A DNA stretch of 64,000 nucleotides from Saccharopolyspora galaxeae (GTDB taxonomy: Bacteria > Actinomycetota > Actinomycetes > Mycobacteriales > Pseudonocardiaceae), in contig NZ_JADDUE010000004.1 of assembly GCF_016526145.1 (NCBI RefSeq), positions 310,001 to 374,000 on the forward strand, read 5' to 3'. This document shows positions 14,086 through 63,293 of the stretch, piece by piece (position 1 is the stretch's first letter; each line of letters opens with the position of its first letter). The notes beneath the pieces were generated by a model that did no database searches, was not told the DNA's origin, and saw nothing but the letters and a program-made list of their open reading frames with translations. The translations under genes and the position numbers were made by a program.

Positions 14086-14171
14086 TCCTCTCCCGCTCGT
14101 AGCTCGCGGCCGGCACCGATGGCGACCCGTGCTCCATGAAGCACGGCCGGGTTGTCCAGGACCTCGGAACG

Positions 14172-14296
14172 AAATGGGAGTTGGCTGGGAATCGGCGGGC
14201 CGCCGCGGGCACGCGCCCCGCGGCACCGCTGCGCACCGGGGCGGCCGGGCGCTGGATCGATCGCGGGATTCCCACCGGGTTCCCAGCCGGTTCCCA
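14172..14296. promoter_or_regulatory. Divergent promoter with 11-bp-phased TCCCA direct repeats
   Basis: On the plus strand TCCCA recurs at 14270-14274, 14281-14285 and 14292-14296, exactly 11 bp apart, in units like GGTTCCCAGCC. On the minus strand TCCCA recurs at 14186-14190 and 14175-14179, again 11 bp apart and facing the other gene. Direct repeats at 11-bp spacing are the usual binding format for OmpR/PhoP-type regulators. The TCS encoded at 8173-10337 is the obvious candidate regulator. Confidence 0.6.
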
Positions 14297-14340
14297 GCTT
14301 CGCGCGGCACCGTCGGGCCGCAACGGCGAGCGGAGGAGAA

Positions 14341-16533
14341 GTGTTGAGCAATCCGGAACGGTCTCGCGCAGCCCGGCTAGTGCTGGGCGAGGTCACCGAT
14401 CCGCCCTGGGCACGGCCCGCGTTGATCGGAGTGCTCGCGCTGGCCGCGGTGCTCGGCACGTGGGCGCTGTCGATCAACGAGTGGGCGAACACCTACTATT
14501 CGGCGACCGTGCTGGGCATGACCCAGAGCTGGAAGGCGTTCTTCTTCGGCGCGGTGGACGCGGGTTCGTTCATCACGGTGGACAAGCCGCCGCTGGCGCT
14601 GTGGGTGCAGGCGCTGTCGGCCCGGATGTTCGGGTTCAACACGTGGAGCCTGCTGGTGCCGCAGGCCATCGCCTCGGTGCTGACGGTGTGGGTCGTGCAC
14701 CACGTGGTGCGGCGCGCGTTCGGCCACGTGGCGGGGCTGCTGGCGGCGCTGGTGCTGGCGGTGACTCCGATCGCGGTGGTCATGGCGCGGCACAACAACC
14801 CGGACGCGCTGCTGGTGCTGCTGGGCGCGCTGGCGCTGTGGGCGGCGTCCAACGCGATCCGCTCCGGAAAGCTGCTGCCGCTGGTGTGGTGCGCCGTCGC
14901 GGTCGGGCTCGCGTTCAACGTGAAGATGCTGCAGGCGTACTTCGTGCTTCCGGTGATCGCGGTGGTGTACCTGGTGGCCGGGAAACCGCGCTGGACGCGG
15001 AAGTTGCGGGATCTCGGTGTGGCCACGGCCGTGCTGGCGGTGGTGAGCGCGTCCTGGATGGTCGCCGTGGACGCGACGCCCGCCGATGCGCGGCCGTACG
15101 TCGGCGGCAGCACCGACAACACCGTGCGTGAGCTGCTGCTCGGCTACAACGGCCTCGGCCGCGTGTTCGGGCAGGAGCACATCGCTTCGCCCGGGATGAT
15201 GGGCGGTGGGCCGGGTGGTCCCGGCGGACCCGGTGGGATGCCGGGGCAGATGCCGCCCGGCGGGCCGGGCGGGCCCGGTGGCGGTAGTCCCGGTGGTCCC
15301 GGTGGCGGGCCTGGTGGCGGCGGTCCCGGCGGTGGCCCCGGCTCGGACGAAGGCAGCTTGACCAGGCTCGTCAGCGGCCAGGTCGCCGGGCAGATCGCCT
15401 GGCTGTTCCCGCTTGCCGCGTTCGGCACCGTCGCGGCGCTGGTCTACCTGCGCGGGCGCCCGCGCAAGGACGCGCAGCGCGCGGATTTCCTGCTCTGGGC
15501 CGGAACTCTGCTGGTGACGGCCGCGGTGTTCAGCTTCGCCTCCGGCATCTGGCACCCGTACTACACCGTGGCGCTGGCGCCTCCGCTGGCAGCCGTAGTC
15601 GGCATGGGCGTGGTGAGCATGGCCCGGTTGTACCGTGTCTCGTCCTGGTGGGGCGCGCTGTTCCCGCTGTCGGTCGGCTGCACCGGCGTGTGGTGCGGGT
15701 CTTTGCTCTCCGGCTCCGATTTCCTGCCGTGGCTGCCGCCGATGGTCGCGGTGCTCACGGCGGTGTCGGTCGGCGTGCTAGGGCTGATGCTGGCTTTCAC
15801 GCGCCAGCGGCGGATGCGCAGGGCGAAGCTGCTGGTCGCGGCAGGAACGGCGGGTCTGGTGGCGATGCTGTCCGGACCGATGTCCTACGCGCTGACTCCG
15901 CTGAGCGAACCGGTGCAGTCGACCTTCCCCAGCGCGGGACCGTCCGGCGGCGGTCCGAGCGGTCCGGGCGGTCCGGGACGAGGCCGCGGCCCGATGTCGG
16001 ACGGTTCGCAGGCCCGCCGTGCGCAGAACTCTCCCGGACAGCACGGCCCGAGCGCGCCGAACTCCCCCAGCCTGGACGGCGGATCGCCGAATGCCCAATC
16101 ACCGGGCCAGATTTCCCGCCGCGGCGGCCCGGGCGGCAGCAGCGAACTACCCGACTCCGCGGTGCGCTACCTGACCGCCCGGCACCACGGCGAAACCTGG
16201 CTCGTGGCCACCGTCGGCGCCATGGTGGCCGCACCGGTCATCCTGCGAACCGGCGAGCCGGTGATGGCCGTCGGCGGCTACAACGGCAACGATCCGGCGC
16301 CCACAGTGGACGAACTCCAGCGATACGTCCGCGACGGCGAACTTCGCTTCGTGTGGACCGACGGGACATCCGGCGTCCGCAGCATGGGCGGCGAGGTCGA
16401 CACCCGGGTAGTCGACGAGTCGATGGGCTGGGTCGCCGCGCACTGCACCGCCGTGGCTCCCGCCGAATACGGCGGAACGGAGCCGGTTCCGGCGGGCGAA
16501 ACGCGGCTCTACGACTGCGCGAAGCCGCGCTGA
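14341..16533 (+). CDS. GT39-family membrane glycosyltransferase (YkcB/ArnT-like), paralogue 2
   Basis: 730 residues from GTG 14341, directly after GGAGGAGAA. It is a clear paralogue of the protein at 10598-12778, with matching loop motifs: NEWANTYYSATVLGMTQSWK and VDKPPLALWVQ (81-84), then ARHNNPDALLVLL. About ten membrane helices follow, with a long Gly/Pro-rich loop around residues 285-335 and a C-terminal extracytoplasmic domain ending HCTAVAPAEYGG...LYDC. The predicted role is transfer of a sugar from a polyprenyl-phosphate donor to an envelope acceptor outside the membrane. The downstream alpha-galactosidase ATG overlaps its TGA (TGATG), so the two proteins are made together. Confidence 0.88.
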   Translation: MLSNPERSRAARLVLGEVTDPPWARPALIGVLALAAVLGTWALSINEWANTYYSATVLGMTQSWKAFFFGAVDAGSFITVDKPPLALWVQALSARMFGFNTWSLLVPQAIASVLTVWVVHHVVRRAFGHVAGLLAALVLAVTPIAVVMARHNNPDALLVLLGALALWAASNAIRSGKLLPLVWCAVAVGLAFNVKMLQAYFVLPVIAVVYLVAGKPRWTRKLRDLGVATAVLAVVSASWMVAVDATPADARPYVGGSTDNTVRELLLGYNGLGRVFGQEHIASPGMMGGGPGGPGGPGGMPGQMPPGGPGGPGGGSPGGPGGGPGGGGPGGGPGSDEGSLTRLVSGQVAGQIAWLFPLAAFGTVAALVYLRGRPRKDAQRADFLLWAGTLLVTAAVFSFASGIWHPYYTVALAPPLAAVVGMGVVSMARLYRVSSWWGALFPLSVGCTGVWCGSLLSGSDFLPWLPPMVAVLTAVSVGVLGLMLAFTRQRRMRRAKLLVAAGTAGLVAMLSGPMSYALTPLSEPVQSTFPSAGPSGGGPSGPGGPGRGRGPMSDGSQARRAQNSPGQHGPSAPNSPSLDGGSPNAQSPGQISRRGGPGGSSELPDSAVRYLTARHHGETWLVATVGAMVAAPVILRTGEPVMAVGGYNGNDPAPTVDELQRYVRDGELRFVWTDGTSGVRSMGGEVDTRVVDESMGWVAAHCTAVAPAEYGGTEPVPAGETRLYDCAKPR

Positions 16534-17789
16534 TGAACCGCCGGAGCATCCTGCGGATCGCCGCCGCACTGCTGCTGGTGCTGTCCGCGACGGGATCCGC
16601 CGCGCCCCGGGAACCCGTTGCGGCGCAACAACTTCCGGTTTTCCCGGCGGAAACTCCGCCGATGGGCTGGAACAGCTGGAACACCTTCGGCTGCGACATC
16701 GACGAGGCCAAGGTCCGGCGCGCCGCCGACGCCCTGGTACGCTCGGGGATGCGCGACGCCGGCTACCGGAACGTGGTCGTGGACGACTGCTGGTACGAAC
16801 CGCAGCGCGACACGGCCGGGAACCTGCGCGCCGACCGCGCACGCTTCCCGAGCGGAATGGCCGCCCTCGGCGACTACCTGCACTCCCGGGGCCTGCGATT
16901 CGGCCTCTACATGTCGCCGAACGTGCGCACCTGCGCGCAATTCACCGGCGCCTATCCGGGAAGCACCGGCAGCGGCGACCGCGAGCTCGGCGACGCCCGG
17001 ACCTTCGCCGCCTGGGGCGTGGACTACCTGAAGTACGACTGGTGCCACGGCGCAGGTTCCACCCGCACCGCCCGCGCCGCGTTCACCACGATGCGCGACG
17101 CGCTGGCCGCCACCGGCAGGCCGATCACCTACAGCATCAACCCGAACAGCAATTTCCCCGGCGCACCGGGAGAAACCGAGAGCTGGCGCGGCGTCGCGCA
17201 CCTGGCGCGCAGCACCGAGGACATCCAGCCGGTCTGGGACACCGGGCACACCAACGAACATCCGATGGGCGTGCGCAACATCATCGAAGTCCTCAGTGGA
17301 CTCCCCGACCGGCCCGCGCCCGGCTATTGGAACGACCCGGACATGCTCGAAGTCGGCGTGAACGGCCACCCCGGCCTGAACCACGAAGAAGCGCGCACGC
17401 ACCTGAGCATGTGGGCGATGTTCGCCGCCCCGCTCATCGCGGGCAACGACCCGAGCCGGATGAGCCCGGCCGACCACGACCTGCTCACCAACCCGGAAGT
17501 CCTGGCCGTCGATCAGGACCCGCTCGGCCACGCCGCACACCGCGTCACCGGCGGCGACCACCAGGTCTGGACGCGCCCACTGCAACAGGGCACCGCCGTC
17601 GCCCTCTACAACCGCAGCGACCAACCCGCCCGAATCAGCACCACGCCGGCCGAACTCCGCCTGCCACCGGGCGATCACCGCATCCGCAACCTGTGGACCG
17701 GCCACCACTACCGCACCACCGACCCGATCTCCGCCGACGTCCCCGCGCACGGCACGGTCCTGCTGCGGATCGACTCCGCCCGGCGGTAA
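16533..17789 (+). CDS. Secreted glycoside hydrolase family 27 alpha-galactosidase
   Basis: 418 residues. ATG 16533 shares bases with the preceding stop. Residues 1-24 look like a signal peptide, so the enzyme should be exported. The GH27 TIM barrel begins with PPMGWNSWNTFGCDIDE (42-58), followed by VVVDDCWYE. The nucleophile is Asp169 in YLKYDWC and the acid/base Asp230 in ARSTEDIQPVWD, with WNDPDMLEVG following. A beta-sandwich domain closes the protein at about 340-418. GH27 enzymes remove terminal alpha-galactose (or alpha-N-acetylgalactosamine) residues. Translational coupling to a membrane glycosyltransferase is unusual and suggests that the hydrolase trims or recycles the same envelope glycan. 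Confidence 0.92.
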   Translation: MNRRSILRIAAALLLVLSATGSAAPREPVAAQQLPVFPAETPPMGWNSWNTFGCDIDEAKVRRAADALVRSGMRDAGYRNVVVDDCWYEPQRDTAGNLRADRARFPSGMAALGDYLHSRGLRFGLYMSPNVRTCAQFTGAYPGSTGSGDRELGDARTFAAWGVDYLKYDWCHGAGSTRTARAAFTTMRDALAATGRPITYSINPNSNFPGAPGETESWRGVAHLARSTEDIQPVWDTGHTNEHPMGVRNIIEVLSGLPDRPAPGYWNDPDMLEVGVNGHPGLNHEEARTHLSMWAMFAAPLIAGNDPSRMSPADHDLLTNPEVLAVDQDPLGHAAHRVTGGDHQVWTRPLQQGTAVALYNRSDQPARISTTPAELRLPPGDHRIRNLWTGHHYRTTDPISADVPAHGTVLLRIDSARR

Positions 17790-17797
17790 CTACCGGC

Positions 17798-18742
17798 TCA
17801 GTAGTGCGCGTTGCGGGGCTTCGGCTGGCAGGACGGGCAGGTGTAGGAGGAGCGGTTCATGAACGAGTCGCGGCGCACGATCGCGCCGCAGCGCGGGCAC
17901 GGGTGTCCGGCCTGGCCGTACACCGCCAGCGAACGGTCGAAGTAGCCGGACTCGCCGTTGACGTTGACGTAGAGATCGTCGAACGAGGTGCCGCCCGCCC
18001 GCAGCGCATCGGCCATCACCTCGGTCACCGCTTCCAGCAGCCGCCGCACCGCGGGCCGCGTCAACGTTTCCGTCGGACGCGCCCAGTGCATCTTGGCCCG
18101 CCACAGCGCCTCATCGGCGTAGATGTTGCCGATGCCGGAGACCAGCGACTGGTCCAGCAGCGCCCGCTTCACACCGGTGCGCCGCGACCGCATCTTCGCC
18201 ACGACCGCTTCGGAGTCGAAAACCTTCTCCAGCGGATCCGGCGCGATGTGCGCCACCGGCGTCGGCAGCGCCACGCCGCCCACGTCGACCAGGTCGGCCA
18301 AGCTCAACCCGCCGAACGTGCGCTGATCCACGAACCGCAGCTCCGGGCCGCCGTCGGTGAACCGGAACCGCACCCGCAGATGCTTCTCGTCCGCGGCGCC
18401 CTGCGGCTGCACCAGCAGTTGGCCGCTCATGCCCAGATGGGTCAACAACGCCTCGCCGGGCACCGCACCGTCTGCGGTGCCGACGAACTCGGTCGACTGG
18501 GTGCGCCCGGCCAGATCGTCCTGCGCGGGCAGGTCGTCGCCGAGCTCCAGCCACAGGTACTTGCCGCGGCGCTGCGCCGACCACACCGTGCGACCGGCCA
18601 GCCGCCCCGCGAAATCTTGCGGACCGGGCACGTGCCTGCGCACCGCACGCTGGTGCAGGACTTCCACAGTGGACAACGTGCGGCCCGCGACGTGTTCGGC
18701 CACGCCGCGCCGGACGACCTCGACCTCGGGCAATTCGGGCAA
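17798..18742 (-). CDS. mutM: Formamidopyrimidine-DNA glycosylase (Fpg/MutM)
   Basis: 314 residues from a TTG at 18742. This start is set by chemistry: Fpg uses the N-terminal proline as nucleophile, and only TTG 18742 gives (M)PELPEVEVV with Pro2 and Glu3. GGAGAGG lies about 8 bp upstream. The enzyme excises 8-oxoguanine and other oxidised purines and nicks the strand. Visible are [10 protein letters not shown] (catalytic Lys region), [11 protein letters not shown], the helix-two-turn-helix [13 protein letters not shown], and a C-terminal zinc finger with Cys pairs CPRC...CPSC. The loop after LELGDD is about 20 residues longer than in E. coli. It is convergent with the GH27 gene, leaving only 8 bp between the stops. 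Confidence 0.94.
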
Positions 18743-18806
18743 CGCGCGCACCTCTCCACCGCAATCGGCCCCGCGGGGCCGCGAGCCGGGCGAGCGCCCG
18801 GCCGGA

Positions 18807-19649
18807 TCACCGCGACGAGTCCCCGCTGGCGGCCTGGTCCTGCTCAGCGCCCGCGTCGTGGTCCTGCCCGGCGGGCGCATCGGACTCGGCAGGCGCATCC
18901 TGCCCGGCGGGCGCGGCCTGCTCGTCGGACCGCTCGGAGAGCCAGCGCCAAGCCGCCTGGGCGGCCTTCTGCTCGGCTTCCTTCTTCGTGCGCCCGTCAC
19001 CCTCACCGAGGGTGTCGCCCGCGACGGAGACGAAGGCGTTGAACTCCTTGCGGTGGTCCGGCCCGTGCTCCTCGACCCGGTACTCCGGCACGCCGCGCCC
19101 GGTGGCGGCGGTGAGCTCCTGCAGGCTGGTCTTCCAATCCAGCCCGGCACCGCGCTGCGGCGCCTCGTTCAGCAGCGGCTCGAACAGCTTGTAGATCATC
19201 CCGCGCGCCACGTCGATGCCGTGCTGCAGGTACACCGCGCCGAGCACGGCCTCCAAGCCGTCGGCGAGGATGCTCGCCTTGTCCCGGCCGCCGGTGAGCT
19301 CCTCACCGCGGCCCAGCAGCAAGTACTCGCCCAGACCGCCATCACCGAGCCCGCGGGCCACACCTGCCAGCGCGTTCATGTTCACCAGGCTCGCGCGCAG
19401 CTTCGCCAGCTGGCCCTCCGGCAGGTCCGGGTGCTCCCGGTACAGCCGGTCGGTGATGACCAGCCCGAGCACCGCGTCGCCGAGGAACTCCAGCCGCTCG
19501 TTCGGCGGCAGCCCACCGTTCTCGTAGGCGTAGGAGCGGTGCGTCAGGGCAAGCGTGAGCAGCTCGGCGTCGAGCTCGACGCCGAGCGCTGCCAACAACG
19601 GGGTCCGGTCCGCGTCCGCGACGCGGTTCCGGGATTGCTTTCCCCCCAC
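18807..19649 (-). CDS. rnc: Ribonuclease III
   Basis: 280 residues from GTG 19649. The signature [13 protein letters not shown] (50-62) carries catalytic acidic residues, and the second acidic motif lies in [17 protein letters not shown] double-stranded RNA-binding domain occupies about 180-250 ([14 protein letters not shown]...[16 protein letters not shown]). An acidic Ala/Gln/Asp-rich tail of about 35 residues is extra compared with E. coli. The enzyme cleaves double-stranded RNA in rRNA processing and mRNA decay. Order rpmF-rnc-mutM is the standard actinobacterial arrangement; the rpmF stop is only 16 bp upstream. Confidence 0.95.
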
Positions 19650-19665
19650 TCCGCGACCCGCGGCG

Positions 19666-19848
19666 TCAGGCGGGCGCGACGACCTGGCGGCCGCCGTACT
19701 GTCCGCAGGACGGGCAGACCACGTGCGGCAGCTTCTGCTCCCGGCAGGACCGGTTGGAGCACTGCACCAGGTTCGGAGCGGAAGCCTTCCACTGCGACCG
19801 GCGGTGCCGGGTGTTGGAGCGGGACATCTTGCGCTTGGGGACGGCCAC
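19666..19848 (-). CDS. rpmF: 50S ribosomal protein L32, zinc-binding form
   Basis: 60 residues beginning [18 protein letters not shown], the invariant L32 start. Four cysteines (30, 35, 45, 48; patterns CSNRSC and CPSC) form a zinc ribbon, so this is the C+ form. It binds the large subunit near the peptidyl transferase region. It starts 3 bp from the end of the DUF177 gene and is followed by rnc in one transcript. Confidence 0.97.
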
Positions 19849-19850
19849 GA

Positions 19851-20426
19851 CTAGTTCTCCTCTTCGATTCCGCCGAACCGCTCACGCAGCGCGGCCCAGC
19901 GAGGGTCAATCGTCTCATGGGTGTGATCGGAGTCGAGCTCGGCCCACTTGGCCCCGCACCCGGCGCACAACCCCTGGCAGTCTTCCGCGCAGACCGGGGA
20001 GCTGGGCATCGCCAGCAGCATCGCGTCGCGCACCGCGGGCTGCAGGTCGATGAGCTCGTCCTGCACCCGGCTGACCTCGTCCTCGTCGGTCGTGCTGTCG
20101 GTGGTGCTGTCCGGGTAGGCGTACAGCTCGCGCAGCTCGATCTCGATCTCGTCGGCGACCGGGTCCAGGCAGCGCGCGCACTCACCGGCCAGCTCGGCGG
20201 ACGCGGTGCCGGAGACCAGCACGCCCTCCACCACCGACTCGGCCAGCAGGTCCAGCCGGACCGGCTCCCCCTCGGCCACCCCGATCAGATCCAGGCCGAA
20301 CCCGGCAGGTACCGGTGCACTGCGGGTGTACTGGCGGCTGCTGCCCGCGCGGTGCCCGATCTCGCGGGTGTCGAGCACCCACGGACCGACCTGGGCGGTG
20401 CGTGCGGCATCACGGTTCTCGGACAT
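19851..20426 (-). CDS. yceD: DUF177 (YceD) family protein
   Basis: 191 residues from ATG 20426; no strong ribosome site is seen and a GTG directly before it is an alternative. The family pattern is present: [19 protein letters not shown], then [10 protein letters not shown] in the middle, and a cysteine cluster [13 protein letters not shown] near 150 that may bind metal. YceD/DUF177 genes almost always precede rpmF, as here. The family has been linked to 23S rRNA accumulation in plants and bacteria (DCL1 homologues). Likely a cytosolic ribosome-biogenesis factor; direct evidence in actinobacteria is thin. Confidence 0.88.
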
Positions 20427-20788
20427 CACTGAATCTCGTTGCGGCGAAGGGTCCCAGCTGGTGCTGGGTTCCGGCGGTGTGCTGGCCTGGTGCGGACGTC
20501 CCGGGCACCGGCGAGCGCCGGTGGTGCGGGAATCCCGATCGGAACCGGACTCCGCGACTCCCGGAGCTCGGACGCGGATATCTGGAACGCGGACGCCTGC
20601 GACCCGGGCGGTCCGTGCCTCGGATCTCCGGAAGCAGAGCATCCGGAAACCGAGATATCCAGAAACCGGGACATCCGGAAACCGGAGCATCCGGAACCCG
20701 GACCCCGGACAACGGGCGAATCCCGCACGGCCAGTAGATCCAGCCTACGCCACCGCCGCGACCACCTGGAATCGCCCCACCCGCGCGG
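20427..20788. other. Intergenic gap with 16-bp tandem repeats
   Basis: A 362-bp gap between the sepIVA stop and yceD start, both on the minus strand. It contains the yceD promoter and a block of 16-bp tandem repeats (20641-20704). Small frames that cross it on both strands are made of the repeats and are not convincing genes. Confidence 0.6.
20641..20704. repeat. Tandem repeat, 16 bp x 4
   Basis: Four consecutive units with the pattern ATCCGGAAACCGGGAC: 20641-20656, 20657-20672, 20673-20688 and 20689-20704, differing at one to three positions each. A degenerate unit may precede them at 20624-20640. The unit length is not a multiple of three, which argues against coding. Confidence 0.85.
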
Positions 20789-21535
20789 TCAGCTCTCGGG
20801 GTCCTGCCCGTTGGTCGCGACGGCCGAGCGGGCGTCCTCGTAGTCGAACGGCACGCCCACCGGGCTGCGCAGCTGCTGGCGTCCGCGCCCGACCGTGCGC
20901 AGCGTGCGGCTGAGCAGGTCCTCGAAGTCGGCCAGCCGGGAGTCCACGTAGGCATCGCAGTCGCTGCGCAGCCGCTCGGCGTCCTCGTTGGCGCTTTCCA
21001 CGATGCGGTGCGCCTCGCTGTGCGCGGCCTGGGCGACCTCGGTGTCGGCGACCAGCCGGGACTGCTCGGTGCGGCCCTCGTGCACGGACTGCTCGTAGGC
21101 GGCCCGCCCGGCCTGCACCATCCGGTCGGCCTCGGACTGGGCGCGGCTGACGTGGTCCTCGTACTCGCGGCGGCCGGCGGTCACCGACTCCTCGGCCTCC
21201 GCGCGCGCGTCGGCGATCATCTGGTCGGCCCGGTCGCGGGCGTCGGAGAGGATCTGCTCCGCCTCGGAGCGCGCCGAGGACAGCGTGCGGTCGGCCTCCG
21301 TGCGGGCGTCGCCGATCGCCTTGCCGGACTGCGCCTCGGCCTTGGACACCACGTCGTCGCGGTGGTCCAGCACGTCCTGCGCGTCGTCGAACTCCTGCGG
21401 CAGCGCGTCGCGCACGTCGTCGAGCAGTTCCAGCACGTCGCCGCGGGGCACCACGCAGCCCGACGTCATCGGAACGCCGCGCGCCTCCTCGACGATCGTC
21501 ACGAGCTCGTCGAGCGCCTCGAAAACCCGGTACAC
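20789..21535 (-). CDS. sepIVA: Septum-associated DivIVA-domain protein SepIVA
   Basis: 248 residues from GTG 21535 (YRVFEALDELVTIVEEARGV), which matches the start of the M. tuberculosis Rv2927c protein and has AGGGAG upstream; an ATG 14 codons earlier is less likely. The N-terminal part is followed by a very long coiled coil (about 60-210) with regular Ala/Glu/Arg heptads (ARTEADRTLSSARSEAEQIL). SepIVA is a DivIVA-like septal protein needed for division and intracellular-membrane-domain organisation in mycobacteria. The position between coaD and yceD/rpmF/rnc/mutM is conserved with mycobacteria. Confidence 0.88.
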   Translation of the reverse strand: MYRVFEALDELVTIVEEARGVPMTSGCVVPRGDVLELLDDVRDALPQEFDDAQDVLDHRDDVVSKAEAQSGKAIGDARTEADRTLSSARSEAEQILSDARDRADQMIADARAEAEESVTAGRREYEDHVSRAQSEADRMVQAGRAAYEQSVHEGRTEQSRLVADTEVAQAAHSEAHRIVESANEDAERLRSDCDAYVDSRLADFEDLLSRTLRTVGRGRQQLRSPVGVPFDYEDARSAVATNGQDPES

Positions 21536-54807: not shown

Positions 54808-54810
54808 TCC

Positions 54811-54912
54811 TTCGGGGCCCATCCGTCTTCGGGGCCGTCGGCTTTCGGGGCTCATCGACTCTCGGGGCCCGTCGACCTTCGCGGCGCTGGCGGATTTCCG
54901 GGCGCCGTCGGC
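54811..54912. repeat. 17-bp degenerate tandem repeat, six units
   Basis: Units of 17 bp start at 54811, 54828, 54845, 54862, 54879 and 54896, all based on TTCGGGGCCCATCGTC-like sequence with two to five differences. It lies directly after the regulator stop, between convergent genes. The unit is not a multiple of three. Confidence 0.7.
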
Positions 54913-55054
54913 CTTCCGCGCAACGGGAGATGTCGCTCGGTCCTTCCCGCCGCTGCCGACGAAGTGAGCGGCGAACCGCTGACCCGGCGCAGCGACGCCG
55001 TGCGGACGGCACATCGGACCGGACGGACCGCTCTGGGCCGAGCGGCCGGATGGT

Positions 55055-55831
55055 TCAGGCGTGCCGGCGCACGAGCGCGTACTCGAAGGGCAAGTGCAGG
55101 AAGGTTCCGTCGGGCAACGGGACGCGGGAGGACAGCGCCAGTTCCCCGGCCTCCAGCACCAGCCACCCGTGCCGCCGGTACAGCCCGGTGAGCCCTTGAG
55201 CGGGGAGCTCGGCGGGCCACAGGCCCGTCGTCGCCGCCTCCCGGATCGCTTCGGGCCACTCGCCGAAGCACTCCGCCAACTCGGCGAGGGACTCGGTGAA
55301 GCGTTCGGAGAGCTCGACGTCGAAGACCCGCCCGCGCTGCCCGGTCAGCACGGCGAGGCCGGCCAACGCGTTCGGCCACTGCTCCGCTGCCATCGCGTGC
55401 AGCACGCCGCGCAGGTGCACGTTCGCGTCGCCGATGCGCTCGTGCAGCGCCCGGACCGCGGCCAAGTCGGTGCTGTCGAGCTGTTCGTAGCGGACCCCGG
55501 TGTGCCCGTTCCCCGTGCGCCCGATCCTGGTGCGCCCGATCCAGGTGTTCCCGTTCCCGGTGTGCGCCTTCTCCAGCGCCGCGGCGGCGACGTCGGTGCC
55601 GAGCACGGTCTCGAAGTGCTCGGCGAAGTGCTCGGTCAACCCGCCGTTCCCGCAACCGGCGTCGACCAGCGGCAGCCGGGAGTCGAACCCCGCGAGCAGC
55701 ATCGGCAGGTAGGGGGCCATGTCCTCGGCGGTGCCGAAGTGCCACGGCACCGGCAGGTCCGGGCTGGTCCCGGCCAGCTGCCAATAGGACTCCCAAGCGC
55801 CGGGTTCATTCGTTCCGGTGGATTCGGCCAT
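55055..55831 (-). CDS. Class I SAM-dependent methyltransferase (bisindole locus, left edge)
   Basis: 258 residues from ATG 55831, with GGGGCGAGG upstream. Motif I is PLVDAGCGNGGLTEHFAEHF and motif post-I VLGTDVAAAALEKA. A low-complexity insert with short repeats (IGRTRIGRTGNG) is encoded near 55500-55560. The C-terminal part (WLVLEAGELALSSRVPLPDG) is typical of small-molecule methyltransferases. It is divergent from the methyltransferase at 56149, separated by 317 bp holding two copies of a shared motif. The substrate is unknown; its location suggests tailoring of the bisindole product. Confidence 0.78.
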   Translation of the reverse strand: MAESTGTNEPGAWESYWQLAGTSPDLPVPWHFGTAEDMAPYLPMLLAGFDSRLPLVDAGCGNGGLTEHFAEHFETVLGTDVAAAALEKAHTGNGNTWIGRTRIGRTGNGHTGVRYEQLDSTDLAAVRALHERIGDANVHLRGVLHAMAAEQWPNALAGLAVLTGQRGRVFDVELSERFTESLAELAECFGEWPEAIREAATTGLWPAELPAQGLTGLYRRHGWLVLEAGELALSSRVPLPDGTFLHLPFEYALVRRHA

Positions 55832-56148
55832 CGCCTCGCCCCTTCTTCGGCCCTGCCGCACGACCGGCAGGTGTGGCTGCATTGCACAGCCCGGGCACCG
55901 GCTCGCGGGTCGCACATATCTGGCGAGCACCAAAGTAGTCCGCGATTTCGCCTGGTGGTCGCGGTTGCCCGCGATACCGCTCGATGGTGGCGCGAGAAAA
56001 CCAGCCCTGCCGAAATTTTGATCGCGACATGAAAAATCCAGCCGAAATGTTCCGGACGCCGCGCCTATTGCGAACCCGAACCCCCAGGAGGAAGATCGCG
56101 CCGAAACCGGCGTGCGGCACGGAGGCCGGTTCGGACGAGGAGGTCATC
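55832..56148. other. Divergent promoter region of the bisindole locus
   Basis: A 317-bp gap, less GC-rich than average, that must hold promoters for the methyltransferases on either side. It contains two copies of the motif GAAAA-N-CCAGCC...GAAAT-N-TT (55994-56020 and 56025-56054). No gene is seen. Confidence 0.55.
55994..56054 (+). promoter_or_regulatory. Two tandem copies of a bisindole-locus promoter motif
   Basis: The first copy has GAGAAAACCAGCCCTGCC followed by GAAATTTTG (55994-56020). The second has ATGAAAAATCCAGCC then GAAATGTTCCG (56029-56054). The second is closely matched upstream of the oxidase gene at 56927-56959. A shared regulator is likely. Confidence 0.55.
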
Positions 56149-56901
56149 GTGGCAGAACAGTCCGGCGCGCCCGAATTCGTCAAGGAGAACGTCGATTTCG
56201 AAGCCTGCTACCAGGGTCAGCGCTTTCTGGCGGGAACCGATCTGACCTTCCCGGTGGCCCCCTGGGACATCGGCGAACCGCAGCCCGCCCTGGTGGAGCT
56301 GGCCGACCGGACCGCGTTCTCCGGCGATGTCCTCGACGCCGGCTGCGGGCTCGGCGAGAACGCGATCTTCCTGGCCGGTCGTGGCTACCGGGTGACCGCG
56401 TTCGACTGCTCGCCGACAGCTCTGGACCGCGCCCGCGCGCGGGCCCGCGAATGCGCCGCCCAGGTCGAGTTCGTGCAGGCGGACGCCACTCGGCTCGGCG
56501 AGCTCAGCGGGCGCCGCTTCGGCACCGTCGTGGACAGCGCGCTGTACCACTGCCTCGGTGCGCAGCAGCAGCACCGATACGCCGCCGCCTTGCACGAGGT
56601 CACCGAACCGGGCGCGCGACTGCACCTGCTGTGCTGGGCGGTGGCGGGCGAGGACGCGGCCGTGCGGCATCCGATGGGCGTCGGCGAGCAGAGCATCCGG
56701 GCCACCTTGGACGCTCGCTGGGAAGTTCTGGAAGTGCGCACCGCGCAGATTTCCACCGCGCTGATCCGGGACGCGCTCACCGAGGCGGACATCGCCCTGT
56801 TCGCGCGGAAAGGGGTCGGCATCGACCCGGGCAGGGCGGCGGTCGACGACCGGGGAAGGATTTCCGCGCCTGCCTGGTTCGTGAGCGCGGTGCGCCGCTG
56901 A
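56149..56901 (+). CDS. Class I SAM-dependent methyltransferase (bisindole locus)
   Basis: 250 residues from GTG 56149, with AGGAGGT 5 bp upstream; upstream in-frame ATGs lie inside the promoter motif. Motif I is VLDAGCGLGENAIFLAGRGY, motif post-I VTAFDCSPTALDRARARA, and VVDSALYHCLGAQQQHRY and ARLHLLCWAVAGED follow. It is cytosolic with no membrane segment. It precedes the RebO/VioA-type oxidase by 151 bp and shares an upstream repeat with it, so the two are probably co-regulated. It likely methylates the dimer product or an intermediate; the position of methylation cannot be told. Confidence 0.8.
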   Translation: MAEQSGAPEFVKENVDFEACYQGQRFLAGTDLTFPVAPWDIGEPQPALVELADRTAFSGDVLDAGCGLGENAIFLAGRGYRVTAFDCSPTALDRARARARECAAQVEFVQADATRLGELSGRRFGTVVDSALYHCLGAQQQHRYAAALHEVTEPGARLHLLCWAVAGEDAAVRHPMGVGEQSIRATLDARWEVLEVRTAQISTALIRDALTEADIALFARKGVGIDPGRAAVDDRGRISAPAWFVSAVRR

Positions 56902-56926
56902 GGACGCGGCGCTTTTGCGCTTTCCC

Positions 56927-57018
56927 CGCGATTTGAAAAACCCCGGCGAAATGTTTCCGCTACCGATCGCCCTTCCGGGTGATCATGGATGTGGCGAACC
57001 GGCGAACTGCGACATAAT
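56927..57018 (+). promoter_or_regulatory. Oxidase-gene promoter with the shared motif
   Basis: GATTTGAAAAACCCC then GGCGAAATGTTTCCG (56930-56959) repeats the motif at 56025-56054. CATAAT (57013-57018) is one base from the consensus -10 and would start transcription near 57025, about 28 bp before the GTG. No clear -35 is visible. Confidence 0.5.
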
Positions 57019-57052
57019 CCGTTTTGTGCGAACAGCTGGGGGAAGATCTCAC

Positions 57053-58501
57053 GTGGCGGCGGAACCGCCCGCCGTGGCGATTCTCGGCGCCGGGATCGCG
57101 GGACTGGTGGCGGCGCACGAATTGGAAAGGCTGGGGCATTCGGTCATCGTGCTGGAGGGCAGCGGCCGCATCGGCGGACGCGTGTTCACCCACCGGTTCG
57201 GCTCCGCCGACAACGCCCCTTACGCGGATTTGGGCGCGATGCGCATTCCGACCGGTCACGCGCTGACCATGCGCTACGTGGACGAACTCGGCCTCACGCC
57301 CGCGCTGCGCCCGTTCCGCACGATCCTGAGCGACCCGAACAACTACCTGGCGACCGGCCGCGGCTTCGTCCGGGTGCGGGACGCGGCCGGGCCGGTGGTC
57401 GAGGACCTGCGGTGCGCGGTCCCGGTGGATTCCTTCCGGCGGGACACCGTGCTGTTCTGCGCCTGGCTGGCCGCGCTCGCCCGGGCGGTGGGCCCGCGTG
57501 CGCTGCGCACGGGCCTGGCCGCGGAGATCACCCCGATGCTGCGCGCAGCCGACCGCGTCGACCTGTCGTCGTACGTGCACGGGCCGGCCGACCGGTTCGA
57601 CCTGGTCGGCGCCTTCGACACCCATCCGCAACTGCGCGAGGCGTGCGGCGTCCGGCTGGCCGGGTTCATCGACGACCTGCTGCTGGAGACCGGAACCCGG
57701 CTGCGGTACCTGGCGGGCGGGATGGGCCGGATCACCGACCGGCTGGCCGCCCGGCTCCGCGGCCCGGTCCTGCTGGACCGGGAGGTCGTGAGCTTGCACG
57801 TCCGCGGCGACCAGGTGCTCGTCGGGCTGCGGCACCGGGGCGTCGACGTGCTCTCGAGATATCCGGTCGCGGTGTGCACGCTGCCGTTCTCGGTGCTGCG
57901 CGAGCTGCAGCTGGCGGGCTTGGACGACGACAAGCGGGAGGTGATCCGCAGCGTCGAGTACGCGGCGGCCACGAAGATCGCACTGCACTGCCGGGAGCCC
58001 TTCTGGAAACGCGCCGCGGTCTCGGGCGGCGCGTCCGCGACCGGCGGGCGGCTGCGCCAGACGTACTACCTGCCGCAGGACGGCGACCCGGCGTTGGGCG
58101 CCGTGCTGCTGGGCTCCTACGCGATCGCCGAGGACGCCGCCCCGCTCGGCCGGTTGCCCGCCGACCGCAGGCACGCCGCTTCGCTGGAGGAGCTGGCCGG
58201 GCTGCACCCGGAGCTCAAGGCGCCGGGCGCCGTGCTCGGCGCCGCGAGCATCTCCTGGGGCGACCACCGCTGGAGCAAGGGCTGCGCCGCGCACCGCTGG
58301 CGGTGGGGCAAGGACGCGGCGGCGGCCAGGGCCGAGGGAATGCGCGCGGCCCGCCCGCAGGGAGGGCTGTTCTTCGCCGGTGAGCACTGCTCGTCCACTC
58401 CGGCGTGGATCAACGGGGCCATCGAGGCGGCGCTGGCCGTCACCGGCGCCGTGGACGCGGCGTTGCGGACCGGTGCGGCCGACCGCGCGCAACGATCGTG
58501 A
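57053..58501 (+). CDS. FAD-dependent L-tryptophan oxidase, RebO/VioA/StaO-like
   Basis: 482 residues from GTG 57053, with GGGGGAAG upstream. The FAD-binding motif is VAILGAGIAGLVAAHELERLGHS near the start, then GRIGGRVFTHRFG and DLGAMRIP. The C-terminal dinucleotide region is GLFFAGEHCSSTPAWINGAIEAAL. Together with its neighbour this places it in the L-tryptophan oxidase group (RebO, StaO, VioA), which converts L-tryptophan (or a chlorinated form) to the indole-3-pyruvate imine with H2O2 release. General flavin monoamine oxidases look similar, so the partner gene is the key evidence. It is directly followed (36 bp) by the dimer synthase gene. Confidence 0.87.
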   Translation: MAAEPPAVAILGAGIAGLVAAHELERLGHSVIVLEGSGRIGGRVFTHRFGSADNAPYADLGAMRIPTGHALTMRYVDELGLTPALRPFRTILSDPNNYLATGRGFVRVRDAAGPVVEDLRCAVPVDSFRRDTVLFCAWLAALARAVGPRALRTGLAAEITPMLRAADRVDLSSYVHGPADRFDLVGAFDTHPQLREACGVRLAGFIDDLLLETGTRLRYLAGGMGRITDRLAARLRGPVLLDREVVSLHVRGDQVLVGLRHRGVDVLSRYPVAVCTLPFSVLRELQLAGLDDDKREVIRSVEYAAATKIALHCREPFWKRAAVSGGASATGGRLRQTYYLPQDGDPALGAVLLGSYAIAEDAAPLGRLPADRRHAASLEELAGLHPELKAPGAVLGAASISWGDHRWSKGCAAHRWRWGKDAAAARAEGMRAARPQGGLFFAGEHCSSTPAWINGAIEAALAVTGAVDAALRTGAADRAQRS

Positions 58502-58537
58502 GCGCCCGCGCGGCGCAGCGGTGAACAGGGGGAAACA

Positions 58538-61500
58538 GTGAGCATCTTCGACCTGCCCCGGCTGCACTTCGCCGGTACGGCGATCACCCGACTGCCCACC
58601 GGCCCGCGCAGCGGGCACTACGACCTGGCCGCGAACGAGGCGCTGACCGCGGACGGCACGCCGTTCCCGCGGGACCGGCCTGCCGCGGAGTACCACGAGC
58701 ACCTCGACGGGCTCGGCGAGCGCTTCGAACCCGACGGCCGGCTCCGGCCGGACGGGCGGTTCGGCACCGCCAAGGGCTGGAACTTCGGCGGCAACGGGCA
58801 CTTCTGGCTGGACGCCCGCATCACCGGGTGGGAGCGCGTGCCGGGCGCGGCCGGTGCGCAGGATCCGGTGCTCGGGCGGGCGGTGGACCTGTGGGGGCAC
58901 TTCAACGAGCACCTGGCGACCACGCACAACCGGGCTCGCGTCTTCGACGTCGACCCGGCGTCCGACTGGACCACCACCGTGCTGGCGGGTCAGTTCTGCT
59001 TCGGCCGCCAGGGTCGCTCGCACGACACCGGGTACATGGCGGTCGGCGCGGTCGACGGCCCGCAGCCACCTCGCTGGCAGAACTCGCAGCACGTGCACGG
59101 AGTCGGCGAGCACCCGCTGGAATCCTGGTTCCGGCGCTCTGTCGTGCATCAGTTCGCCGTGGACGCCGACGGCCTGGAGTGGTTACCCGAGGCGGAGATT
59201 TCCGAGGCGGTACGGCTGCTGCGCGCCGCGGCGGGCCCAGGCGGTCTGGTCGTCCGCTACGCGCTGAGCAACATGGCCGCACCGCGAGACAACGACACCC
59301 CGAACGTCTGGCAGGTGCGCGGCACCATCGCTGCCCGCGACCCCGCGGAAGAGCGCACTTGTCCGGCGGGGCGGTTGCTCACCGCGCGCGAACCCCGCCG
59401 GCGCGGTGAACCGGCTCCGCTGCACAACGCCGCGGTGCAGGTGACCGGCGAGCACACGACCTTCGACCTGATCACCGCGGTGCCCGCGCTGGGACGGAGC
59501 CCGGAGCCCGGTCCGGACGGGGTGCACCGGCTCGGGCCGCGGCTGGACCTGGGAGATCTGCAGCTGCGCACGCGCGGCTCCGGGCAGCTGGTCGCGCGGT
59601 TGCCCAGTAGCGCCTACCGCGCGGACACCGAGCGGACCGGCGGGCTGGTCACCGTTGCGACCGAGCCGGGATGCGCCGCAGCCGAGGACGAGCCGCTGGT
59701 GCTCGTCCGCGAGGGGCAGGAGTCCGCGGTGCTGCTCGCCGAGGAGGAGTCGGTCGTGCGGATCGACGACTCCTGCCTGTTCCTCGACCCCGCCGAGGGA
59801 GACAGCACCGAGGGAGACAGCACCGAGCGGGACGGCAGTGCGGGGGACGGCACCGCGCGGGTACCGGTCCGCACGTACCACCTGGGACGCCCCGCTCCGC
59901 TGAACGGCCTGCGGGTGGTGCAGTTCTTCAACCCGCGCGCACTGCCGCGGGACCCGCGGGCCCAGGCCGCGGACGCCCGGTGCGGTGCGGTGCAGATCGT
60001 GCAGGTCCGGCCGGACGAAGGCGCCGCGGATTGGGCCGAATCCTGCACCTTGGACACCGACGAACAGGGCCGAGCCGTGTTGGCGGTGCGCTGCGCCACC
60101 GCCGGCGCCACCCGGCTGCTGCTGCTCCCGGAAGGCCAACTCCCGCCGTGCGATCCGGACGAGCCCGGCTCAGCGGCCCGCGCGTACGACAACGACGACC
60201 GCACGGGCTACTGGCCCGCCGTCGGCTGCGCGGACGTGCGCGTGCTGCCGGACACCCGGCACCTGGACGAGATTCCGCGCGCGGAGGTCACCCACGACCT
60301 GCTCTACCGGGAGGTCTTCGCGCCCTACGAGCTGCTGTACTCGTTCATGGCCGACGAGGTCTTCAGCCTGGCCGAGCAGAGCAAGGTGGGCACTTACGCG
60401 CGGCTGATCTGGCTGATGTCCGACCCGCGCCACCGGGACAAGACGTTCTACATGCCGCCGACCCGCGACCTGACCCGGCCGCAGGGCCGCTTGCTGCTGG
60501 CCCACCTGCGCAGGCAGCAGGCGCCCGCTCCGCCGGAGCTCGTGGCCCGGCGAGATCGCCCCGGCGCCATCACCACCCGCGGTCAGCTGCGCGACGCGCT
60601 GCGCGAGGCCGCGAGCGTCGAACTCGCCGGGATGCTGCAGTACCTGTACGCCGCCTGGTCGATCCCGACGCACGAGGCCGGGCAGCAGCTGGTGCGGCGC
60701 GGCGAGTGGACCGCCGAGCAGCTGCGGCTGGCCTGCGGCGACGGCACCGAGACGCTGCGCAACGGGATGCGCGGCGAGCTGCTGAGCGTGGCGCGGGAAG
60801 AGATGGTGCACTTCCTGGTGATCAACAACATCATCACGGCGATGGGGTTGCCGTTCCACTTGCCGGACATCGACTTCGGCCGCGTCAACCACCGTCTGCA
60901 GGTGCCGCTCGACCTGGCCTTGGAAGGGTTCGGGCTCGGGAGCGTGCAGCGGTTCATCGCGTTGGAGCAGCCGCACTCGTTGACCAGGGAGATCGCAGGC
61001 GACGTCGCGCCGGACGCGGCCGGGAAGGCGTACCCGTACCAGTCGCTCAGCGACCTCTACGCCGCCATCCGGGAGGGCATCGGCGCGGTGCCGGACCTCT
61101 TCCTGGTGCAGCGGGGGCGGGGCGGCGGCGAGCACCACCTGTTCATGCGCAGGTCGCTCAACGACGTCCACCCCGACTACCAGCTGGAGGTGGACGACGT
61201 CCCCAGCGCGCTGTTCGCCATCGACTTCGTCACCGAGCACGGCGAGGGCAACGTCCTGCCCGGGCCCGCGGACGAGGACTCGCACTACGACACCTTCCTG
61301 CGGATGTCCGACCTGCTGATGGCGCACCGCGTCGAGGCGCCCGGCCAGCGGTGTCCACCGTGGACACCCGCGTACCCGGTGCTGCGCAATCCGACGTTGC
61401 ACGCGGGCGACGGCGCCAGGGAACCGGTCACCGCGCCGGAGGCGCGCTCGGCCATGGTGCTGTTCAACCGCTCGTACTTCCTGATGCACCAGCTGATGCT

Positions 61501-61825
61501 GCAGCACTTCCACGGCGCGGCCGACGCCAGCCTGCGGCGCTCCCGGCTGATGAACGCGGCTATCGACGTGATGACGGGGATGCTGCGGCCCATCGCCGAG
61601 CACCTGGTGACGCTGCCGTCCGGACGGCCCGGCCGCACCGCCGGGCCGTCCTTCGAGCTGGAGGAGGAGCCGGGTTTCCTCGCCCGTCCCGATGTCGCGC
61701 TGCGCTCGCTCGGCGGCCGCTTCGACCACCTCGCTCGCCAGGCTGCGGAACAACCCGGCCTGCCCGCGCGGGTCGCAGAGCTGATGCGCTCCTACGCCGC
61801 GGAGTTCCGCGGGTCGGCACCGTGA
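58538..61825 (+). CDS. Iminophenyl/indole-pyruvate dimer synthase, RebD/VioB/StaD-like
   Basis: 1095 residues from GTG 58538, with GGGGGAAACA upstream. It starts MSIFDLPRLHFAGTAITRLPT, close to the VioB/RebD start, then NFGGNGHFWLDARIT and VDLWGHFNEHLATTHNRARV. The middle has LLYREVFAPYELLYSFMADE and YARLIWLMSDPRHRDKTFYM (about 587-650). The ferritin-like domain has ASVELAGMLQYLYAAWSIPT (about 690) and the metal-ligand segment AREEMVHFLVINN (about 753), then GGEHHLFMRRSLNDVHP (about 863). RebD and StaD dimerise two indole-pyruvate imines to chromopyrrolic acid; VioB makes an imine dimer used by VioE. It is about 80-100 residues longer than VioB or RebD, partly through an acidic insert (EGDSTEGDSTERDGSAGDG, about 425). 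Confidence 0.92.
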   Translation: MSIFDLPRLHFAGTAITRLPTGPRSGHYDLAANEALTADGTPFPRDRPAAEYHEHLDGLGERFEPDGRLRPDGRFGTAKGWNFGGNGHFWLDARITGWERVPGAAGAQDPVLGRAVDLWGHFNEHLATTHNRARVFDVDPASDWTTTVLAGQFCFGRQGRSHDTGYMAVGAVDGPQPPRWQNSQHVHGVGEHPLESWFRRSVVHQFAVDADGLEWLPEAEISEAVRLLRAAAGPGGLVVRYALSNMAAPRDNDTPNVWQVRGTIAARDPAEERTCPAGRLLTAREPRRRGEPAPLHNAAVQVTGEHTTFDLITAVPALGRSPEPGPDGVHRLGPRLDLGDLQLRTRGSGQLVARLPSSAYRADTERTGGLVTVATEPGCAAAEDEPLVLVREGQESAVLLAEEESVVRIDDSCLFLDPAEGDSTEGDSTERDGSAGDGTARVPVRTYHLGRPAPLNGLRVVQFFNPRALPRDPRAQAADARCGAVQIVQVRPDEGAADWAESCTLDTDEQGRAVLAVRCATAGATRLLLLPEGQLPPCDPDEPGSAARAYDNDDRTGYWPAVGCADVRVLPDTRHLDEIPRAEVTHDLLYREVFAPYELLYSFMADEVFSLAEQSKVGTYARLIWLMSDPRHRDKTFYMPPTRDLTRPQGRLLLAHLRRQQAPAPPELVARRDRPGAITTRGQLRDALREAASVELAGMLQYLYAAWSIPTHEAGQQLVRRGEWTAEQLRLACGDGTETLRNGMRGELLSVAREEMVHFLVINNIITAMGLPFHLPDIDFGRVNHRLQVPLDLALEGFGLGSVQRFIALEQPHSLTREIAGDVAPDAAGKAYPYQSLSDLYAAIREGIGAVPDLFLVQRGRGGGEHHLFMRRSLNDVHPDYQLEVDDVPSALFAIDFVTEHGEGNVLPGPADEDSHYDTFLRMSDLLMAHRVEAPGQRCPPWTPAYPVLRNPTLHAGDGAREPVTAPEARSAMVLFNRSYFLMHQLMLQHFHGAADASLRRSRLMNAAIDVMTGMLRPIAEHLVTLPSGRPGRTAGPSFELEEEPGFLARPDVALRSLGGRFDHLARQAAEQPGLPARVAELMRSYAAEFRGSAP

Positions 61826-61916
61826 CCGCGATGGTCTCGCGGAATTCCCGGTGCGCATTCGCGGTCGGGTTGCCGAGCGGATCGATGCCGCCGCGATCAG
61901 ATCGACGAAGCCTCGT

Positions 61917-62666
61917 TCAATTCGGGTCCGGGGCCTGCCAGACGGCGGCGGCCATTGCGACGGCCACCCCGTCGAAGAATTGCGCACCCGGCAACCACCC
62001 GGAATAGGCGTCCCGGAATTCCTGCGAACTCGGCAGCGTGTTGAGCTCGCCCAGCTTGTGCCAGCTGGGGTGCAGGAAGAGGTTCAACGCGTCCGTGGCC
62101 GCCCCGGCATCGGCGGTGGCCCGGTACACGGCTTCGGCGTTCTGGAACGCGACCGGGATGTGCCAGTCCGCGTCCCGGCCCTTCCGGGCGTGCAGGTCGG
62201 TCCGCTGCGGTTCCAGCACGACCAGCCGCCCGCCCGGGGCGACCAGCGAGCGCAGGTGCGGCAGGATCTGTTCGTAGGGACGCATGTGGAACACGGCGCT
62301 GAAGGCGAAAACGACGTCGAACACGCCATCCGCCGCGGGCTCGACGTCGTAGGCGCTGCGCGCCTCGTAGCGGATGTTCGCGGCCGGCCGGGTCCGCCGC
62401 GCGATGTGGATCAGCGCTTCGGACAGGTCGACGCCGAGCACCTGCGCGTAGCGTTCCGCGAGCAGCGGGCAGTGCCTGCCGGTACCGCACCCGACGTCGA
62501 GCGCTCGGTCACCGCCGGGCAGTTGGGCGTCCAGCCAGGTGCGGAACGGGCCTTCCGCGTCGATCATCCGGGTGGCCATCCGGTCGAAGTGTTCGGCCAC
62601 GTCGTCGAAAAGCGCGCCGACTTCCGCGGACCGCGCAGCAATGGACTCTTTTCCCGATGATTCCAT
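61917..62666 (-). CDS. Class I SAM-dependent methyltransferase (bisindole locus, right edge)
   Basis: 249 residues from ATG 62666. No strong ribosome site is seen, and an in-frame GTG 62729 could be used instead. Motif I is ALDVGCGTGRHCPLLAERYA, motif post-I VLGVDLSEALIHIARR, motif II VFDVVFAFSAVFHM, and APGGRLVVLEP follows. It is convergent with the dimer synthase gene with 91 bp between stops. Its small size and lack of a leader are as in tailoring methyltransferases of secondary metabolism. Together with the genes at 55055 and 56149 it gives the locus three methyltransferases. Confidence 0.8.
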   Translation of the reverse strand: MESSGKESIAARSAEVGALFDDVAEHFDRMATRMIDAEGPFRTWLDAQLPGGDRALDVGCGTGRHCPLLAERYAQVLGVDLSEALIHIARRTRPAANIRYEARSAYDVEPAADGVFDVVFAFSAVFHMRPYEQILPHLRSLVAPGGRLVVLEPQRTDLHARKGRDADWHIPVAFQNAEAVYRATADAGAATDALNLFLHPSWHKLGELNTLPSSQEFRDAYSGWLPGAQFFDGVAVAMAAAVWQAPDPN

Positions 62667-63252
62667 GTCCTGGCACGATACCTGCAGCCGCCATTCCCGT
62701 TCGGGTGAAATGATGCGCAGGATTTGCACAAATTCCGACAATTTTCGGCATCGCGGGATGCGAGCCGATCAGACACTCCGGCGGATGGAGTTCGCCGACC
62801 GGAATCGACGACGTCCTGCCCTGGTCCAGCCCTCGGCAACGGCGTCCCGCAGGAGTCCGGGGTCGCCGTGCGGCGACCACTCCGTCGACACGACGCTCGA
62901 TCACGGACACGCCCGCTGGTGACCGAGCATCCGTTTTCCAGCGCGAACACCGTCGCCGACCTGCGCAACGAACACGGACACCGCACCTCCGACGGAGGTG
63001 CTCAGTCCGTCAAGTCCGTCGTGCCCTGTCCAACCGCATCGACAGGTCGCCGACCACATCGACGAGACCACCAACAGCGGCACACCCGACGAGCGCAAGG
63101 CTCGCACCGAAGCCCTAGCGCCCCGGACCGAGATCACCGACCCGAGCCGGCTCGTCCCGGTCCCACTCCCCCAGCCCCGCGACAAAACGAGGCCGCCCCC
63201 ACCTCACCAGCGGGAACGACCTCGGAAGGAGCGGTTCGCACAATGTTTGCTT
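62667..63252. other. Gap with a decayed recombinase tail
   Basis: 586 bp between the methyltransferase start and the first tRNA. The first 300 bp hold the methyltransferase promoter; GGGTGAAATGATG at 62704-62716 weakly resembles the bisindole promoter motif. From about 63043 there is a frame-shifted remnant of a serine recombinase C-terminus. The other long frames here are unconvincing. Confidence 0.5.
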
Positions 63253-63293
63253 TGGTAGTCCCGACGGGATTCGAACCCGCGCCGCCGGCGTGA
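63043..63293 (+). pseudogene. Remnant of a serine-recombinase C-terminus abutting tRNA-Glu
   Basis: One frame reads VADHIDETTNSGTPDERKAR then DPSRLVPVPLPQP, which resembles the end of large actinobacterial serine recombinases (the segment before their last residues often reads GTPDERKALIEALV... LIPVFRIPQ). Another frame then gives VRTMFALVVPTGFEPAPPA, the usual final segment that runs into the adjacent tRNA gene. The two parts are in different frames and there is no upstream catalytic domain, so this is a decayed piece left by an integrated element. I recognise it by pattern only. Confidence 0.45.

Follow-up and report, generated by a model that had tools for sequence, protein, structure and literature searches.

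Chromopyrrolate is familiar mainly as a precursor of kinase-inhibiting carbazoles. Here we describe a locus of Saccharopolyspora galaxeae in which a RebO/StaO-type oxidase (O) and a RebD/StaD-type dimer synthase (D) are accompanied by three methyltransferases (MT1, MT2 and MT3). The five genes lie at positions 55055-62666 of a stretch of 64,000 nt (assembly GCF_016526145.1, contig NZ_JADDUE010000004.1, positions 310,001 to 374,000), the whole of which is called the window in the following. We estimate at roughly 0.7 the probability that this gene set makes a methylated, uncoupled chromopyrrolate, i.e. a bisindolyl-pyrrole, with reactions and product deduced from the genes.

Several described systems resemble the locus in part. 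O and D are adjacent and in the same order as in staurosporine-type loci (a type assigned by gene order). However, the reb and sta clusters also contain StaP/RebP, StaC/RebC, sugar genes and a glycosyltransferase, all absent from the window, and D is about 51-57% identical to its counterparts in staurosporine-type loci. Lynamicins carry methyl groups, and the lynamicin/spiroindimicin compounds (lyn/spm) are bisindole pyrroles like the product proposed here, but the lyn cluster has two halogenases, two flavin reductases, a RebP-like cytochrome P450, a transporter and a regulator, none of which is present in the window. Lycogarubin C, like the lynamicins an uncoupled bisindolyl-pyrrole, was obtained from the same extract as lynamicin/spiroindimicin compounds (PMC5301196). 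The abe/cla clusters (BE-54017/cladoniamide) share with the window O, D and an AbeM1-like methyltransferase, and the abe-like loci L050, L062 and L072 are its sister group in the D tree; in contrast to the window, they add StaP/StaC-type enzymes, the flavin oxygenases X1 and X2 and a halogenase (PMC3158105). A borregomycin-like cluster of low similarity is listed among the clusters of the two strains in the paper on S. galaxeae HNM0986 (PMC11599206).

The preliminary description of this DNA considered the pathway to be unusually small. This does not hold, and small size was rejected as a sign of novelty, since two known clusters are similarly compact. The six-gene reductasporine cluster redODPEMT combines O, D and a methyltransferase; it differs from the window by a P450 and an imine reductase, and its RedM is treated together with COMT-type methyltransferases (PMC10784701). 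The BE-13793C cluster (bec) has five genes including O and D and a stated span of about 8.4 (unit missing from the passage); unlike the window it contains becC, becP and a LuxR regulator, and its gene table has no methyltransferase (PMC7024260). The enzymes are of known kinds, and what appears to be new is a P450-free lineage with methyltransferases as its only tailoring genes. Our literature search revealed no paper on an O/D cluster with methyltransferases only, which weighs little because most subscription papers lay outside the search; a search with the spm gene names returned unrelated papers only.

Oxidase, dimer synthase and coupling enzymes

The O gene (57053-58501, plus strand, GTG start) encodes a predicted flavin-dependent L-tryptophan (amino acid) oxidase, which matches Pfam Amino_oxidase with E 3e-48 and the GAMRIP stretch of which aligns with L-amino acid oxidases. 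D (58538-61825, plus strand, GTG start), a putative chromopyrrolate synthase with a ferritin-like domain, scores 710.8 bits with the VioB model and was rejected as a VioB member, the equivalog cut-off being 1250 bits. With the same model the D proteins of a staurosporine-type and an abe-type locus reach 786.7 and 592.3 bits, respectively, also below the cut-off, and judged from its sequence D behaves like the RebD/StaD side of the family. A search of the PDB sequences with D gave no match up to E 1. Adjacent members of these two families place the locus among the RebO/RebD-type bisindole (tryptophan dimer) pathways, as had been proposed for positions 57053-61825.

To collect related loci, a genome contig collection was scanned with two N-terminal patterns derived from a four-sequence D alignment, a procedure which misses D genes without these patterns. 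It yielded 62 loci, i.e. 63 with the window. D rows longer than 900 amino acids were available from 59 of the 63 loci (L053, L065, L069 and L074 being too short or split) and O rows longer than 350 amino acids from 59 loci; L063 was dropped from the former and L053 from the latter, leaving 58 rows in each tree. Both are quick trees without bootstrap, supported by the Shimodaira-Hasegawa-like approximate likelihood ratio test (SH-aLRT), and LynD and SpmD are not among the rows of the D tree. In these trees the window and the loci L013, L014, L015, L047, L055 and L059 form one clade, with SH-aLRT values of 100 (D) and 99 (O). The D protein is 66-85% identical to those of the six other clade loci, and O groups with D-linked oxidases, the nearest six of which are 63-79% and the remainder 46-55% identical to it. 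O keeps 43 of 45 positions that are identical in 49 other rows and D keeps 160 of 165 (again 49 other rows), counted without L049, L053, L063, L074 and rows of up to 980 (D) or 380 (O) amino acids. D departs from five otherwise invariant positions, and the replacement of Arg by Leu at position 449 is common to all seven clade loci.

As regards StaP, StaC and halogenases, the claim that the usual partner enzymes are missing stands for the window, in which tblastn with StaP, StaC and two halogenase queries gave no match, but the lack of StaP and StaC is not peculiar to it. In none of the seven clade loci was a match to StaP or StaC found by tblastn (E<=1e-8, >=40% of the query), the queries originating from L019, which by its gene order we take to be a staurosporine-type locus. 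Outside this clade StaP is present in 50 of 56 loci (50/63 in total). Five of the six other loci without StaP (L027, L049, L062, L065 and L069) are truncated where a contig or the fetched stretch ends, leaving L048 as the only genuine exception; L027 and L049 also appear without both enzymes in the D tree, but as truncated loci placed elsewhere. The locus thus has neither the StaP/RebP and StaC/RebC pair of an indolocarbazole (reb/sta) cluster nor the tryptophan halogenase of a lynamicin/spiroindimicin-type cluster. VioC, VioD and VioE were not recognised by eye among the predicted genes of the window, and no model or query search for them was made in the window or the genome. In the D tree the sister group of the clade, L050/L062/L072, carries StaC in all three and StaP in two of three loci, and therefore the simplest reading is that the coupling enzymes were lost at the base of the seven-locus clade. 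In the O tree L065 and L072 are the next relatives; at L065, O and a part of D are located on a 3-kb contig. In the five Streptomyces genomes of the clade, StaP of L050 has matches at E<=1e-60 in four, all 36-41% identical, and none in the fifth.

Some of the related loci deserve mention in their own right. L047 (6206-17231) and L055 (6204-16710), from Streptomyces gossypii and S. radicis, harbour a flavin-reductase-like gene, a tryptophan halogenase, O, D, an MT3 homologue, a reductive-aminase-like protein and a P450 without StaP match (gene families tested in L047 only), and may represent a new halogenated bisindole cluster. In L014, L015 and L059 (approximately 13500-21000), O and D are followed by genes for a large regulator-like protein and a DUF574-like protein (both labelled by eye), then for a PapA-type protein and a methyltransferase; L015 and L059 additionally have a halogenase and an MT2 homologue, and no StaP match was found in the three loci (Pfam tested in L015).

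A five-gene cassette, probably mobile

The order of the genes is MT1 (minus strand), MT2, O and D (plus strand) and MT3 (minus strand). All five open reading frames predicted earlier at 55055-62666 are open at or near the coordinates given then, gene prediction by codon-position composition singled out these five, and the family assignments agree; gene starts were set from ribosome-binding sites or relatives. The left flank is formed by leuD/leuC, recognised by their aconitase domains, and iclR, and the right flank by two tRNA-Glu genes at 63253 and 63858, in line with the leuCD-iclR and tRNA surroundings described before. In the inserted interval between iclR and tRNA-Glu (54808-63252) no further genes were predicted, and no integrase was seen among its predicted genes.

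This interval measures 8.4 kb in the window but only about 70-300 bp in four congeners (G001-G004), the iclR genes of which are 92-93% identical. One of them, Saccharopolyspora sp. NFXS83 (G002), has an empty iclR/tRNA-Glu site and carries all five genes in identical order on another contig (L009); the other three lack D. DNA homology between the two copies extends from 55072 to 62711 (80.4% identity in 55072-56911 and 85.6% in 56943-62711). Because the same genes are found at a different site in NFXS83 and the gap is tiny in four congeners, the locus is a complete five-gene cassette of about 7.6 kb, probably self-contained and mobile, which bears out the suggestion that it is complete, and its recurrence in the same order shows that the gene set is more than a chance assembly. 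Simple pairwise counts between the two copies gave ratios of nonsynonymous to synonymous substitution (dN/dS) of 0.49 for MT1, 0.17 for MT2, 0.42 for O, 0.25 for D and 0.17 for MT3.

D matches were found at E<=1e-3 in 5 of 60 relatives (the own genome counted either among the 60 or in addition to them), full-length in three of them (the own genome, G002 and G023), and at E<=1e-80 in 5 of 394 genomes of the class, the own genome included. Plasmid records contain D homologues of less than 60% identity only, for example 48% in Streptomyces clavuligerus. A second, larger cluster was not found in the host genome of 6,397,171 bases, since it harbours a single D gene and no close StaP, StaC or halogenase.

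A 29-bp direct repeat is present in two copies on the plus strand (55991-56019 and 56023-56051; one is the reference, the other 69% identical to it) in the upstream region between the divergent MT1 and MT2, and in a third copy (56927-56955, plus strand, 83%) upstream of O. Because the cassette has no regulator of its own, we considered a shared operator, which is possible judging from the sequence; in the NFXS83 cassette the element was not found as a repeat, and by eye only degenerate look-alikes are visible.

The three methyltransferases

Pfam assigns MT2 and MT3 clearly to the class I methyltransferases, while MT1 barely exceeds the cut-offs of two Pfam methyltransferase models, with a match of 37 residues. 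MT1 (55831-55055, minus strand) is nevertheless related to the S-adenosylmethionine (SAM)-dependent methyltransferase CyaF (PDB 9k2f, E 5e-57; a second SAM methyltransferase follows with 4e-21), and its counterpart in the NFXS83 cassette is 75-78% identical. Matches to MT1 at E<=1e-10 exist in 12 of 298 genomes of the order, the own genome included. Outside the cassettes the closest relative of MT1 is encoded in G027. It agrees with CyaF at all 67 residues compared and adjoins P450s, and the same 20 kb also encode an AMP-binding enzyme and a protein with a Cucumopine_C domain; we presume this to be a beta-carboline alkaloid cluster. No paper on CyaF was found in a literature search on CyaF and cyanogramide biosynthesis.

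MT2 (56149-56901, plus strand, GTG start with a ribosome-binding site; Methyltransf_25) is a class I SAM methyltransferase that forms a clade with homologues from L013, L015 and L059, all near O/D (support 100/99), which the unlinked gene L088 joins next (99/97). MT trees were calculated without proteins longer than 420 amino acids. The possibility that MT2 is an orthologue of AbeM2, an indole N-methyltransferase, was rejected because it does not group with the gene at the AbeM2 position of L062.

MT3 (61917-62666, minus strand, ATG start at 62666) groups first with L047/L055 (100/99); L072 and two tandem copies from the Streptomyces genome G790 join this group next (99/96), followed by L062/L050 together with a third copy of G790 (94/96). 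Its homologues adjoin D in L047, L055, L062 and L050 and O in L072, and this grouping with D-linked genes puts MT3 into the AbeM1-like N-methyltransferase group. L062 has the gene order of abe (BE-54017), with matching protein lengths (D 1015, H 515, C 533, Y 264), although abeF was not picked up, and its MT3 homologue occupies the place of AbeM1, which is reported to methylate the succinimide nitrogen (PMC3158105). MT3 homologues are rare: at E<=1e-25 they occur in 3 of the 298 genomes of the order, counting the own one, and in 2 of the 392 Streptomyces genomes. The three G790 homologues (L131/L134 and L136), two of them in tandem, lie on two contigs of about 3.1 kb.

Predicted product and alternative explanations

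In the pathway that we propose, O would convert L-tryptophan to indole-3-pyruvate imine, and D would couple two imines to chromopyrrolic acid (3,4-bis(indol-3-yl)pyrrole-2,5-dicarboxylic acid). As the locus has neither a P450 for aryl-aryl coupling nor StaC/RebC, the pathway is expected to end at the uncoupled bisindolyl-pyrrole, without the ring-closing steps of the staurosporine-type relatives, and this pyrrole would be decorated by the three methyltransferases. By analogy to AbeM1, the most likely target of MT3 is the nitrogen of the central five-membered ring, and this is the best-based single assignment; MT2 and MT1 most likely act on indole nitrogens or carboxylates, with the sites being guesses. 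The expected product is up to a trimethyl chromopyrrolate with [M+H]+ 428.16 (dimethyl 414.14, monomethyl 400.13; calculated by hand). Of the two products suggested in the preliminary description, the methylated bisindolyl-pyrrole is the best reading, and the imine dimer derivative is less likely because D keeps 160 of the 165 invariant positions.

Several observations weigh against this pathway. Near their O/D pairs L047 and L055 carry a P450 of another type and the reductive-aminase-like gene, so that not every clade locus is proven to be coupling-free, and one of the many P450s of the host genome could act in trans. An MT1 homologue beside O/D exists, besides the host, solely in NFXS83. MT2 belongs to a widespread family, with matches at E<=1e-20 in 88 of the 298 genomes of the order (own included); the MT2 of the window differs from abe in that it does not cluster with the gene at the AbeM2 position of L062, and other parts of the tree hold the MT2-like genes of L062, L072 and L040. 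In the MT3 tree the genes linked to bisindole loci do not form an exclusive group of their own (4 changes), as the three G790 rows, with no known link to O/D, fall inside and L018 outside.

The P450s lead to the alternative that the cassette feeds an indolocarbazole or another coupled bisindole with the help of a P450 and a flavin oxygenase that the host encodes elsewhere in its genome. The host genome has 29 StaP matches and 8 weak StaC-like ones, but the best StaP match is 40% identical over query residues 93-383, in comparison to 43-100% for the 50 StaP genes near D, and the best full-length StaC match reaches 34%. NFXS83 is similar (37 StaP-like matches of up to 40%, best full-length StaC-like 33%), and for tryptophan halogenase the model gave in the host genome only matches of 55-62 positions, of a kind also found in 5 of 14 control genomes. 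A suitable oxygenase seems to be at hand about 2.8 kb past the window end (L008, 2784-4022): a flavin adenine dinucleotide (FAD) monooxygenase with 46-47% identity to the genes that occupy the AbeX2 position in L050, L062 and L072. We considered it as a pathway member; however, four congeners have it at the corresponding position, three of them without a D gene, and for this reason it probably belongs to the core genome flanking the insertion site. As the partners are also absent from seven loci in two genera, we regard host-assisted coupling as unlikely.

The lack of partner genes and the position of D beside the abe-like D proteins could also mean that the cassette is what remains of a larger abe- or borregomycin-like cluster in decay and has no specific product. 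Decay is difficult to reconcile with five reading frames open in two strains at different sites, dN/dS values of 0.17-0.49 and the conservation of D, and its probability appears very low to us. Quite low, too, is the probability that D releases or misroutes the imine dimer in a VioB-like manner, with the methyltransferases trapping an unstable intermediate. The five departures in D, with the Leu at 449 throughout the clade, would fit such a change, but the score with the VioB model corresponds to the RebD/StaD type, and no VioE was recognised, though no search was made for it. Moreover, RebD-type enzymes reportedly form chromopyrrolic acid without a partner.

Based on the methylated chromopyrrolate as product, it is tempting to speculate further, although we would put the odds of the whole picture somewhat below even. 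The seven loci may constitute a distinct P450-free tryptophan-dimer lineage which arose by loss from abe-like ancestors. In its Saccharopolyspora branch, without halogenation, methylation would be the sole tailoring, and an AbeM1-type enzyme, instead of acting on an imide nitrogen, would have turned to the pyrrole nitrogen of chromopyrrolate and would yield an undescribed N-methylated chromopyrrolate, with the pathway moving as a five-gene cassette without its own regulator, transporter or integrase. If a lineage has indeed retained O and D, discarded the coupling P450 and acquired methyltransferases, three small methyltransferases are on offer for bisindole engineering, the five-gene set is directly testable, and an uncoupled bisindolyl-pyrrole would be an end product under selection.

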